A DNA stretch of 64,000 nt from an uncultured Flavobacteriaceae bacterium (GTDB lineage: Bacteria; Bacteroidota; Bacteroidia; Flavobacteriales; Flavobacteriaceae): the NCBI GenBank assembly GCA_947494565.1, contig CANLVG010000001.1:496001-560000 (forward strand), given 5' to 3'. This document shows, piece by piece, positions 11,949 to 14,804 of this stretch. The first letter of the stretch is position 1; each line of letters begins with the position of its first letter. The position numbers and the translations under genes were made by a program. The notes beneath the pieces were generated by a model. The model was not told where the DNA came from. It made no database searches and worked only from the letters and a program-made list of their open reading frames with translations.

Positions 11949-12611
11949 ATGACAAAATCTGAAAAAGTCACTTTTACTATTCAAACGCTACAGGAATTAT
12001 ATCCAACCATTCCTGTGCCTTTAGAACACAAAGACCCCTATACCTTATTGATTGCTGTACTGATGTCCGCTCAAAGTACGGACGTTCGGGTCAATCAAAT
12101 TACGCCTTTGCTTTTTGCCAAAGCGGACAATCCCTATGACATGATCAAGCTTTCAGTTGATGAAATTCGGGAAATCATCAAACCTGTAGGCCTCTCCCCT
12201 ATGAAATCAAAGGGTATTCATGGGCTTTCTAAGATATTGGTAGAAAAATACGACGGAGTAGTACCTCAAGACATAGCCCTGTTGGAGGAGTTTCCGGCGG
12301 TAGGCCACAAAACCGCAAGTGTTGTGGTATCACAGGCATTTGGTATTCCCGCTTTTCCTGTAGACACTCATATTCATCGATTAATGTACAGATGGGGGTT
12401 TTCAAACGGAAAAAATGTCGTTCAAACCGAAAAAGACGCCAAAAGGCTTTTCCCAAGGGATTTATGGAATGACCTGCATTTACAAATTATCTGGTACGGA
12501 CGTGATTATTCACCTGCTAGAGGTTGGAACCTGGAAAAAGATATTATTACCAAGACCATTGGAAGGAAAAAGGTATTGAACGACTACTATAAATTAAAAA
12601 AGACCCGCTAA
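11949..12611 (+). CDS. nth: Endonuclease III-family DNA glycosylase without the iron-sulfur cluster
   Basis: The helix-hairpin-helix glycosylase fold is clear: LMSAQSTD for damage-site contacts, the HhH LEEFPAVGHKTA with catalytic Lys121, and the catalytic Asp139 in VDTHIHR. It would remove oxidised pyrimidines and cleave the abasic site in base-excision repair. The family normally ends with four Cys binding a [4Fe-4S] cluster. Here the corresponding tail (WYGRDYSPARGWNLEKD) has none, and the whole 220-aa protein contains no cysteine. Length is normal, so this is substitution rather than truncation. The stop codon is within a bidirectional terminator hairpin. Confidence 0.88.
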   Translation: MTKSEKVTFTIQTLQELYPTIPVPLEHKDPYTLLIAVLMSAQSTDVRVNQITPLLFAKADNPYDMIKLSVDEIREIIKPVGLSPMKSKGIHGLSKILVEKYDGVVPQDIALLEEFPAVGHKTASVVVSQAFGIPAFPVDTHIHRLMYRWGFSNGKNVVQTEKDAKRLFPRDLWNDLHLQIIWYGRDYSPARGWNLEKDIITKTIGRKKVLNDYYKLKKTR

Positions 12612-12626
12612 TTGCGGGTCTTTTTT
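12596..12626. terminator. Bidirectional terminator between nth and the first 47-aa ORF
   Basis: GACCCGC/GCGGGTC stem, 5-base loop, flanked by an A-run and a T-run. It contains the nth stop codon and abuts the stop codon of the convergent small ORF. Confidence 0.85.
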
Positions 12627-12768
12627 AATTTAAAATACTTTCGAAGCTGAAACTCTTATACTCCATCACGCGAAGTGATTTCGAAAAGTTCAACAAAAAC
12701 CTAATCGTTTCAGGAGAGGTCTTGGTTAGCTTACAATGTTGTTGGTCTCTGGTGTAAATTTTTTCCAT
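12625..12768 (-). CDS. 47-aa conserved small protein downstream of the first ECF sigma gene
   Basis: This 47-codon ORF starts ATG at 12768 after an A/T-rich leader and begins MEKIYTRDQQHCKL; the central part reads ETIRFLLNFSKSL and the end FESILN. A second ORF of exactly the same length lies downstream of the second sigma gene (13844-13987) and shares 27 of 47 positions without gaps. That conservation, together with the same position after a sigma paralogue and the same leader bases, supports a translated gene. No membrane segment or known domain is visible. It is separated by 74 bases from the sigma stop codon and may be cotranscribed. A role as a sigma-factor partner is only a guess from position. 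Confidence 0.7.
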   Translation of the reverse strand: MEKIYTRDQQHCKLTKTSPETIRFLLNFSKSLRVMEYKSFSFESILN

Positions 12769-12842
12769 ATCGAGTTATCATCATGTTATGATAAGATAAC
12801 GCAACTAAAATGGAATTATTGTTAATCGCTCTAGGAACCCGA

Positions 12843-13484
12843 TTAATTAGTCAAGACAATATTGTTTTTGTCGATGATCTTTCTAAGGTTGATTAAGGCA
12901 TAACGCATTCTTCCTAACGCAGTATTGATACTCACACCGGTATTTTCAGAAATCTCCTTGAAGCTCATATCCTTATAGATTCGCATTAAAAGAACTTCTT
13001 TCTGATCATCGGGCAATTCCTCGATCAAATGTCTAAGATCAGAATCGATTTGATTCTTGATGATTTGCTTTTCGGCGTTCAACTTATCATCTCCGATAAC
13101 GGAAAAGATGTTGAAATCATCGTTACCCTCGAATTTGGGCATTCTTTTGTTCTTTCTGAAATGATCGATGATCAAATTATGGGCGATACGCATAACCCAT
13201 GGAAGAAATTTACCTTCTTCACTATAGGTTCCTTTCTTCAAGGTTCGAATAACCTTGATAAAGGTATCCTGAAAAATATCTTCGGTCACATCGCGGTCCA
13301 GTACTTTTGAGTAAATAAAACTGGTGATTCGTTGGTTATGTCTGTTAATAAGAATTTCCAGGGATTTTTCATCTCCGCTGATGTAATCTCTGACGAGCAC
13401 TGAGTCTTCAATCTGTAATTCCATTCTTGTAGGGTTTTCTGTTAAGGTTTGGGATTTCTTGTTGGACAGCTTTTTTTGGGTCAT
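12843..13484 (-). CDS. ECF-type RNA polymerase sigma factor, copy 1
   Basis: A sigma-70 family factor with region 2 (RHNQRITSFIYSKV, TEDIFQDTFIKVIR) and region 4 (LPDDQKEVLLMRIY, helix-turn-helix FKEISENTGVSINTALGRMR). It directs RNA polymerase to its own promoter set. It is about 83 percent identical to the factor at 14093-14674. The start at 13484 gives a 20-residue Lys/Thr/Ser-rich extension not present in the paralogue; ATG 13424 would give exactly the paralogue's 193 aa. The longer start is kept because a leader inverted repeat abuts it, as in the other copy. No membrane anti-sigma gene is adjacent; a 47-aa ORF follows. Confidence 0.9.
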   Translation of the reverse strand: MTQKKLSNKKSQTLTENPTRMELQIEDSVLVRDYISGDEKSLEILINRHNQRITSFIYSKVLDRDVTEDIFQDTFIKVIRTLKKGTYSEEGKFLPWVMRIAHNLIIDHFRKNKRMPKFEGNDDFNIFSVIGDDKLNAEKQIIKNQIDSDLRHLIEELPDDQKEVLLMRIYKDMSFKEISENTGVSINTALGRMRYALINLRKIIDKNNIVLTN

Positions 13485-13560
13485 TATCTAGTTATTTTTT
13501 GAGTTGAATCTTAAATCATGGTATGAACCTCGATTTTCAATTATGACCTAAAACTAGATA
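13485..13560 (-). repeat. Inverted repeat in the leader of sigma copy 1
   Basis: TATCTAGTT (13485-13493) and AACTAGATA (13552-13560) are perfect 9-bp inverted arms separated by 58 bases. The proximal arm touches the start codon at 13484, so pairing in the mRNA would cover the A-rich leader used for ribosome recruitment. The rest of the gap up to 13792 shows nothing recognisable. Confidence 0.45.
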
Positions 13561-13792
13561 TTACAGGGCTAGACGAAAAAACATTGTTGTCAAACAAGCA
13601 GTTTTTGATGTGAAACGCACTTTTTTAAACTTCAACAAAATAAATAGTGCGATAAGTCGTTGCCAAATTCAACTCCAAGGAATTTAATTCACGCCTGTTT
13701 TAGTATATAGAATGGTTTCTTACAACACGGATTACTATTTAAGTAATCTGTCATTTCCACAGCGCAAGGGAAAATTAATATAAGGCGGAAAC

Positions 13793-13828
13793 AAAAAACC
13801 CCGACAATGTACATTGTCGGGGTTCTTG
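13793..13828 (-). terminator. Terminator after the second sigma / small-ORF unit
   Basis: A perfect 12-bp palindromic stem (CCCCGACAATGT with ACATTGTCGGGG) followed on the minus strand by a run of T. It ends the 47-aa ORF transcript before the first unit. Confidence 0.85.
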
Positions 13829-13843
13829 AATGGGATGTGTTTC

Positions 13844-13987
13844 TTAATTCAAGTTACTTTCGAATTGTATACCCTTCGCATTGATGACCTTCAACGATTT
13901 CGAATAGTTCAATAAGAAATCTATTGTCTGAGGTTGCGCTTTGACCAGTTTACATTTCGTTTTAGATGTTGAGTAAATTTTTTCCAT
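13844..13987 (-). CDS. 47-aa conserved small protein downstream of the second ECF sigma gene
   Basis: This is a paralogue of the ORF at 12625-12768. It begins MEKIYSTSKTKCKL, continues QTIDFLLNYSKSLKV and ends FESNLN. It is 47 aa, with the same first five residues, a shared C-K-L and P-x-T-I, and a FLLN[FY]SKSL core. It starts 105 bases after the sigma stop codon and ends just before a strong hairpin terminator, so the sigma gene and this ORF probably form one transcript. No hydrophobic segment, so likely cytoplasmic. Function unknown. Confidence 0.7.
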   Translation of the reverse strand: MEKIYSTSKTKCKLVKAQPQTIDFLLNYSKSLKVINAKGIQFESNLN

Positions 13988-14092
13988 ATCTATTTAAAGT
14001 TTGGTTTCACTAGTAAAACGCCACATTAAATAAATATAATCAATTCGTTCGACCTGATGTCAAATAATTCGTTTATTAGACCTAAGGTCAAT

Positions 14093-14674
14093 TTAGTTCG
14101 TTAAAACAATATTGTTTTCGTTAATGATCTTTCGCAAGTTAATCAGTGCGTAACGCATTCTTCCCAAGGCTGTGTTGATGCTGACGCCCGTATTCTCTGA
14201 AATCTCCTTAAAACTCATATCCTTATAAATACGCATCATAAGAACCTCTCTCTGGTCTTCTGGCAACTCTTCTATGAGAACGGTCAAATCAGAATCGATT
14301 TGATTCTTGATAATCTGATTCTCGGCATTGAGCTTTTCGTCTCCCATCACAGAAAATACATTGAAGCTATCAGCGCCATCGTACATTGGCATTCTACTAC
14401 TCTTTCTAAAATGGTCGATGATGAGATTATGGGCGATTCGCATCACCCAAGGCAAAAATTTGCCTTCTTCGCTATACGTGCCTCGCTTTAACGTGCGAAT
14501 GACCTTTATAAAAGTATCCTGAAAAATATCCTCGGTAATTCCGCGGTCATTTACTTTCGAATAAATAAAACTGCTAATACGCTGATTGTGGCGATTGATA
14601 AGTGTTTCTAGAGCTCGCTCGTCTCCGTTTATATAGCTTTTTATAAGTACTGAATCTTCTAGCTGTACTTTCAT
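14093..14674 (-). CDS. ECF-type RNA polymerase sigma factor, copy 2
   Basis: A 193-aa sigma-70 family factor with the same region 2 and region 4 blocks as its neighbour. The promoter-recognition helix (SENTGVSINTALGRMRYALINLRK) is identical in both copies, so they probably recognise the same or overlapping promoters; most substitutions lie in the N-terminal ~25 residues and the inter-domain linker around residues 92-118. It is divergent from uvrA. A -7 box (14797-14804) would give a leader of roughly 115 bases containing a 13-bp inverted repeat next to the start codon. No anti-sigma factor gene is recognisable nearby. Confidence 0.92.
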   Translation of the reverse strand: MKVQLEDSVLIKSYINGDERALETLINRHNQRISSFIYSKVNDRGITEDIFQDTFIKVIRTLKRGTYSEEGKFLPWVMRIAHNLIIDHFRKSSRMPMYDGADSFNVFSVMGDEKLNAENQIIKNQIDSDLTVLIEELPEDQREVLMMRIYKDMSFKEISENTGVSINTALGRMRYALINLRKIINENNIVLTN

Positions 14675-14675
14675 A

Positions 14676-14763
14676 ACAATTACTTTTTGAGGTTAAAATG
14701 TAGCGTCCTCTTCTAGCGAAAAGGTCTTGTGGGTTATTCTAACTATTTCTAAAAAGTAATTGT
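14676..14763 (-). repeat. Inverted repeat in the leader of sigma copy 2
   Basis: A perfect 13-bp inverted repeat: arms at 14676-14688 and 14751-14763 with a 62-base loop. The proximal arm lies one base from the start codon and would sequester the AAAAAGTAATTG leader in the mRNA. Position and loop length match the repeat before sigma copy 1 although the arm sequence differs. Confidence 0.55.
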
Positions 14764-14796
14764 ATTGCTATAGGCACTTTTGCTTTTAAGTGAATT

Positions 14797-14804
14797 CAAA
14801 TATA
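14797..14804 (-). promoter_or_regulatory. Candidate -7 box for sigma copy 2
   Basis: Reads TATATTTG on the minus strand, matching TAnnTTTG. A start near 14791 would give a leader of about 115 bases spanning the inverted repeat. No -33 TTG at normal spacing. Confidence 0.4.

Follow-up and report, generated by a model that had tools for sequence, protein, structure and literature searches.

The described systems that come closest to the locus treated here are pairs of an extracytoplasmic function (ECF) sigma factor and a class I anti-sigma (ASDI) protein, of the RpoE-RseA type. According to the available sections of PMC7406223, such an anti-sigma has three helices that bind sigma4 and a fourth that occupies sigma2, and an ASDI neighbour is found for 6% of the Bacteroidetes ECFs, as against 32% overall. 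The window analysed here, a stretch of 64,000 nucleotides from an uncultured Flavobacteriaceae bacterium (contig CANLVG010000001.1, positions 496,001 to 560,000), carries on its minus strand, at 12625-14674, two units that each consist of an ECF sigma gene followed by an open reading frame (ORF) of 47 codons; with so few recognised ASDI neighbours in a phylum rich in ECF sigmas, this module is a concrete candidate for such a partner. It resembles the RpoE-RseA type in having a small conserved gene right behind the ECF sigma gene, an ECF-type promoter within the unit and no other regulator adjoining in the window, and in that some long homologues of the small protein have the common helix behind an anti-sigma-like N-terminal domain. 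It differs in that the small protein is without a membrane segment, as judged by inspection, and has only 47 amino acids in the window, in the placing of a promoter between sigma and partner, and in the structured leader and housekeeping-type promoter of the sigma gene. The protein itself, its linkage to the sigma gene, the putative promoter in the gap and the predicted leader helix are established by conservation among relatives, and the module may function as sigma/anti-sigma feedback pairs do; in Pfam, NCBIfam, Rfam and the open-access literature searched, no description of the small protein or of the sigma leader was recognised.

A second point of comparison is SigP of Porphyromonas gingivalis, the sigma factor of the PorXY-SigP pathway of type IX secretion. 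Compared by description, both are ECF sigmas of 193 amino acids; the available portions of PMC4800418 and PMC10951265 report one SigP homologue in F. johnsoniae and, within those portions, mention no small partner gene for SigP. PorV, a marker of the type IX secretion system (T9SS), is present in 241 of 247 genomes of the class, and is so nearly universal there that its co-occurrence is uninformative on a T9SS link.

A 47-residue protein encoded behind an ECF sigma gene

Comparison of relatives identifies the small ORF as a real and widespread member of the module, encoding a 47-residue protein under selection. The ratio of nonsynonymous to synonymous substitution (dN/dS) is 0.205 (95% interval 0.169-0.243) for 69 pairs of distinct sequences, with no sequence in more than one pair, where the initial annotation of this locus had named a ratio near one as telling against the gene; the other two frames give ratios of nonsynonymous to synonymous differences (pN/pS) of 1.07 and 1.82. 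Between the two window copies pS is 0.74 and pN 0.30, so that synonymous sites are near saturation. Family and distant alignments share the core P..(T/S)(I/V)..(L/I)LNYSK(A/S)L.V, and the last residue is asparagine in all 216 distinct family sequences (113 with AAC, 103 with AAT) and in 59 of 60 distant ones; a nearly invariant end written with both codons shows constraint at the level of the protein. The family asparagine count, like the dN/dS value, is from distinct sequences, 12 repeats having been removed. Family sigmas also end in asparagine, usually as NI(V/I)LTN (126 of 145 units), as do three of 43 distant relatives; with so few of the latter, no C-terminal signal common to sigma and small protein is claimed.

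The linkage is equally persistent. A single small-protein query matches 127 of 149 family genomes and 126 of 148 genera, and the own genome holds the two window copies with no others at E<=10, which together argue that the ORF is not due to chance. A profile search of 128 family loci gives 145 small-ORF copies, and in 145/145 units a sigma ORF precedes the small ORF on the same strand, at a distance of 37-157 nt (median 59), with nth downstream in 140 and bcp in 135. A further 92 loci were fetched, 11 of them repeating loci among the 128; three (L180, L181 and L189) lie in the opposite orientation and were left unread, and in all 89 readable ones a sigma lies within 300 nt of the small ORF. 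Beyond the family, profile matches at the loose cut-off of E<=0.01 extend to the order (161 of 246 genomes) and the class (97 of 247), while 45 of 296 genomes in a phylum sample, whose out-of-class share is not shown, match at E<=0.001, all of them from the same class or nearer. The closest relatives bearing names are Maribacter and other Flavobacteriaceae, and family and class are accordingly taken as Flavobacteriaceae and Bacteroidia. A sigma gene is directly upstream in 44 of the 60 distant loci fetched, and 16 have no adjacent sigma. The profiles were built from 90 of 142 ATG-start sequences, from three family and 39 of the 60 distant sequences, and from 69 of 79 loci together with the two window proteins. 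That the ORF is fortuitous, or that only the DNA is conserved, has its shortness in its favour and nothing else; dN/dS and the distribution in family, order and class refute it, leaving a probability close to nil.

Relatives that keep the sigma gene and have lost the ORF had likewise been named as evidence to the contrary; the outcome here, like that for dN/dS, does not refute the gene. Twenty of the 22 family genomes with no first-pass small-ORF match were tested, and a sigma match was found in 15. At 12 of the 15 (L349-L360) the sigma gene is followed by a CGTT and a small ORF, diverged but in frame (judged by eye for L357 and L359); in six cases the CGTT belongs to the fuller AATA...CGTT. 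The sigma matches of L362 and L363 (46% and 40% identical), which are without a small ORF, are likely paralogues. Behind the sigma match of L361, 54% identical, there is neither a small ORF nor a CGTT promoter.

In the window, the two minus-strand units agree in layout with the initial description. The upstream unit comprises the first-copy sigma gene at 14093-14674 (193 amino acids; Pfam Sigma70_r2 1.3e-14, Sigma70_r4_2 1.4e-11) and, after a gap of 105 nt, small ORF 2 at 13844-13987 (MEKIYSTSKTKCKLVKAQPQTIDFLLNYSKSLKVINAKGIQFESNLN); the downstream unit comprises the second-copy sigma gene at 12843-13484 (Sigma70_r2 5.2e-14) and, after 74 nt, small ORF 1 at 12625-12768 (MEKIYTRDQQHCKLTKTSPETIRFLLNFSKSLRVMEYKSFSFESILN). 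The 20-residue N-terminal extension of the second sigma is doubtful, and its start may be at 13424. Both sigmas contain sigma70 regions 2 and 4 (PF04542 and PF08281, above gathering thresholds), and they share 160 of 193 aligned residues (83%), with the same region-4.2 stretch FKEISENTGVSINTALGRMRYALINLRKII and the same region-2.4 stretch GKFLPWVMRIAHNLIIDHFRK, so that the likeness first reported for the proteins and their recognition helices is confirmed; the small proteins are of equal length and identical at 27 of 47 residues, again as described. The neighbours, by reading of translations, are bcp and nth downstream and uvrA upstream, consistent with the report that no membrane anti-sigma gene adjoins. 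The description as a duplicated unit is right as to the two copies and too narrow otherwise, the module being widespread rather than merely local. The span first given, 12625-14674, is too short, as the leader and promoter of the upstream unit reach to about 14804; the intergenic promoter and the RNA leader, both missed at that stage, are the most informative parts of the locus.

The promoter of the small ORF

ECF promoters typically have a CGT core at -10. When the sigma-to-ORF gaps are aligned they reveal just such an element, CAATA-N15-CGTTA: CGTT is present in 145/145 gaps and the exact CAATA-N15-CGTT in 101, while AATA-N15-CGTT is found in 114 of the 145, against a mean of 0.9 in shuffled and 2 in reversed gaps. 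The putative ECF promoter of small ORF 1 is CAATA-N15-CGTT at 12798-12821 and that of small ORF 2 is GATTA-N16-CGTT at 14017-14041, both on the minus strand. For the distant loci the stretch searched was set by its distance from the ORF end, blind to the motif, and a looser form (spacer 14-16) was allowed; it is present at 41 of the 44 loci with an adjacent sigma (0.94 in shuffles, 1 reversed) and at 16 of the 16 without one (0.46 in shuffles, 0 reversed), the exact CAATA-N15-CGTT accounting for 25 and nine of these, respectively. Since the motif is kept where no sigma adjoins, the promoter goes with the small ORF rather than with the sigma gene that ends before it. It lends weight to the regulated output that the initial annotation had listed among the possible roles of the small protein.

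Terminator-like hairpins were seen by inspection behind both small ORFs on the minus strand: CCCCGACAATGTACATTGTCGGGG with a T run at 13793-13822 behind small ORF 2, and GACCCGC-AATTA-GCGGGTC with a T run at 12594-12620 behind small ORF 1. An automatic terminator scan called a different, overlapping hairpin at 13803-13786 behind small ORF 2, with no excess over shuffles, and did not call the one at 12594-12620. L225 has one terminator between sigma and small ORF and a second behind the ORF, which supports a separate small-ORF transcript. In the gap of L196 the CAATA...CGTT sits within a CCCCACACAATATAGATTTGTGTGGGG hairpin followed by T's, and may be a terminator of the sigma gene instead.

The element has a described counterpart in the SM6 (CGT-box) promoters of F. 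psychrophilum, for which a CGT-core -10 motif is given in the available sections of PMC9723704. The CGT core at -10 is common to both, and the comparison is on that core; SM6 covers several genes, including parts of the T9SS (same source), whereas here the -35 is CAATA and the strict motif is without excess away from the sigma-to-ORF gap in 60 family genomes. In these genomes TACAATA-N15-CGTTAT, a form that neither window promoter fits, has 17 matches, 11 of them in this gap (assigned by agreement of coordinates with small-ORF matches) and six elsewhere, against 17 reversed. In the own genome CAATA-N15..17-CGTTA shows no excess, with 44 matches against 60 reversed; several of the 30 matches listed precede ORFs and are not separable from chance. 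No wider regulon is claimed, though further targets may exist. The promoter of the small ORF should itself report sigma activity, so that CAATA-N15-CGTTA can serve as a probe for the inducing condition.

A short transcript with its own promoter and terminator, as predicted here, would also suit a small RNA or dual-function RNA to which the ORF is secondary. Such an RNA could be Rfp11 of Flavobacterium psychrophilum, whose locus may be the same one and which the available text of PMC9723704 describes as SM6-driven (from a CGT-box ECF promoter), structured and conserved. Strong selection at the protein level, and an amino-acid motif kept across a large distance with both asparagine codons in use, make this explanation very unlikely.

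The RNA leader of the sigma mRNA

The rpoH thermosensor and the rpoS leader are translational-control leaders of sigma genes, and the sigma mRNA of this module is like them in having a hairpin in its start region. It differs in what the stem covers, an A-rich stretch and not a Shine-Dalgarno sequence, in the conserved GCCTATA outside the stem, and in that the stretches searched contain no match at the gathering score of any Rfam family. In the family the order is a housekeeping box, GCCTATA, and an arm ATTACTTTT pairing with AAAAGTAAT right before the ATG; the box, TAnnTTT[GA], is found upstream of 121 of 127 single or first-copy sigma genes, and GCCTATA in 123. The window has TATATTTG, a Bacteroidetes housekeeping -7 box (TAnnTTTG; consensus from the available parts of PMC6847099 and PMC9723704), at 14797-14804 upstream of the first sigma gene, followed by the leader proper at 14675-14783, all on the minus strand. 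Within it lie the motif GCCTATAG (14768-14775), the 5' arm ACAATTACTTTTT (14751-14763), a variable inner part, and the 3' arm AAAAAGTAATTGT (14676-14688, positions -14 to -2), which adjoins the AUG at 14672-14674.

The window leader folds at a minimum free energy of -25.8 kcal/mol (z -3.45), with none of 200 shuffles as low. The stem is A-U-rich, the one feature seen here that bears on an RNA thermometer. In a set of 96 leaders 91.6% of its cells are paired and double changes number 61, where shuffled sets give 26.1 (0/500); with partners slid along the sequence, pairing does not exceed 60.7%, a control that favours the stem, since the latter was picked by hand from these same sequences. A narrower set of 88 leaders gives 92.7% pairing and 57 double changes against 24.5 shuffled, and two of its five measures fall within the shuffles (double-change pairs 108/500, pair types 37/500), the corresponding values for the 96 being 1/500 and 16/500. 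The 88 derive from 126 candidates, 98 after clustering, of which 11 were dropped by hand (eight single or first copies and three second copies) and to which the window first copy was added; the 96 are these plus the eight restored single or first copies. RNAalifold on leader alignment A3 found no structure. More independent is a swap of arms among 28 distant leaders, where own arms pair at -9.59 kcal/mol and swapped arms at -6.51 +- 0.40 (0/5000); these are 28 of the 60 distant loci, having G[CT]NTAT[AT] ahead of an ATG near the sigma start, and include L195 and L232, which were probably mis-picked and were kept. In L219 and L237 the stem includes the start codon itself, as seen by inspection.

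A covariance model (R1) built on the 88 leaders has one match in the own genome, at 14672-14783. Among 25 genomes at E<=1 it has one match in 16, two in G626 and none in eight; at the 60 distant loci it has 24 matches at E<=1 over 23 loci, one being antisense (in L234), and 11 at E<=0.01, all on the module strand. The leader thus has what defines a cis-regulatory leader, a helix at the translation start with compensatory changes. In F. johnsoniae, A-rich positions near -12/-13 raise translation and structure in the start region tends to lower it, according to the available sections of PMC6847099; as the window 3' arm spans -14 to -2, translational control of the sigma is the likely role of the leader, which would then be a place where a signal may enter.

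Two side observations concern these motifs. Leaders L116, L137 and L141 have AAAGGGGAA or AAAAGGGAA as 3' arm, not AAAAGTAAT, and a C-rich stretch (CTCTCC, CTCCCC, TTCCCC) further upstream, possibly reflecting a switched pairing partner or a Shine-Dalgarno-like site. In 20 of the 60 distant loci (L195, L196, L204, L205, L207, L211-L214, L225, L226, L229, L230, L234, L239-L241, L243, L244 and L249) a CCTATG, mostly GCCTATG, overlaps the start codon of the small ORF and resembles the GCCTATA of the leader. A common trans-acting regulator of the sigma and small-ORF mRNAs is possible.

What the small protein may do

We see about an even chance that the module is self-contained, with the small protein feeding back on the sigma and limiting it as an anti-sigma-like brake. 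On this proposal, housekeeping polymerase would make the sigma mRNA from the box seen upstream of it, and the leader hairpin, by pairing the A-rich region before the start codon, would keep translation low until a signal opened it. The sigma would then read CAATA-N15-CGTTA behind its own gene and give a short mRNA for a small cytoplasmic protein, which, with its conserved helix and nearly invariant C-terminal asparagine, would bind the sigma and limit it; this last step is the least certain. A pointer to it comes from five long homologues of 88-89 amino acids: in four of them (L229, L240, L197 and L199) the common helix comes after an N-terminal domain that weakly matches NCBIfam anti-sigma models, with E-values of 4.7e-4, 0.0039, 0.0033 and 0.026. 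The small protein may accordingly be a minimal anti-sigma that retains just the helix-4-like part of the longer domain, and, given that the fourth helix of class I anti-sigmas occupies sigma2 and blocks core binding, the 47-residue form could be a fourth-helix-only remnant. Its gene adjoins the sigma gene as an ASDI gene does; in neither window protein, however, was the defining N-terminal three-helix bundle found, nor any other Pfam or NCBIfam match at E<=1, and it is therefore not classed as a class I anti-sigma.

Several results weigh against this proposal. The NCBIfam matches are far under the curated cut-offs, the fifth long homologue (L241) has none, no anti-sigma match to the long homologues was found in Pfam, and the matched domain is the very N-terminal part that the 47-residue proteins lack. 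The AlphaFold model of the small protein, a helix (residues 19-31) and a beta hairpin, is of low confidence (pLDDT 71, pTM 0.37). Couplings between sigma region 2.1 and the small protein (S34-A17, I26-L25 and S34-K30) rank near the top and above permuted pairings, but are no higher than those of the small protein with nth or bcp at the same loci, so that this signal is not used. As to the promoter, AATA-N15-CGTT is missing from 31 of the 145 gaps and the window first copy has a degenerate -35 and a spacer of 16; as to the leader, three other single leaders fold with no more than a moderate advantage over shuffles (z -1.86, -2.30 and -1.90).

The small protein might instead be the output of the sigma rather than its regulator, acting elsewhere (on RNA polymerase, a protease, the ribosome or a membrane system) and recognised through its free C-terminal asparagine. 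The invariance of that residue, in whichever codon, suggests such recognition, and the 16 distant loci with no sigma beside the ORF, together with the lack of a sign of other strict-promoter targets in the 60 family genomes, fit as well; the duplication of the small ORF along with the sigma, the joint absence of ORF and promoter in L361 and the anti-sigma-like domain of some long homologues speak for a regulator, and we regard the output explanation as somewhat unlikely. Tight linkage and a sigma-type promoter would suit feedback of either sign, so that a positive loop, in which the small protein would assist the sigma as a co-factor or keep it stable, has also to be considered; there is a precedent in Porphyromonas gingivalis, where PorX is proposed to keep SigP present (available text of PMC4800418). 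Pfam and NCBIfam show no resemblance to any known co-factor, and the weak domain matches favour an anti-sigma, which leaves a co-factor unlikely. Of the new sigma partner put forward in the initial annotation, then, a persistent and unannotated partner is borne out by linkage and dN/dS, with anti-sigma, co-factor and effector as its candidate roles.

More tentatively, and at rather less than an even chance, the locus may represent a widespread regulatory device of Bacteroidia with a new layout, in which an ECF sigma is held at translation by a conserved RNA leader and limited by a sigma-transcribed 'helix-4-only' micro-protein anti-sigma with an obligatory asparagine, GCCTAT coordinating the translation of both. 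If the helix-4-only reading is true, it would supply the phylum with one of its missing anti-sigma classes. Genes as short as the small ORF escape annotation-based surveys.

The tandem arrangement of the window recurs, with two units side by side at 17 loci; G106 is a further genome with two, on separate contigs. GCCTATA is present in 17 of 17 first copies and three of 17 second copies, and both stem arms in one of 17 second copies. The window follows this pattern, with a leader at the unit of 14093-14674 and none, nor any GCCTATA, at that of 12843-13484; the tandem copies may thus divide roles, one retaining RNA control and the other having mostly lost it. Several second copies, including that of the window upstream of 13484, have a different upstream sequence, TTTGACAACA ... 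CTAGTTTTAGGTCATAATT.

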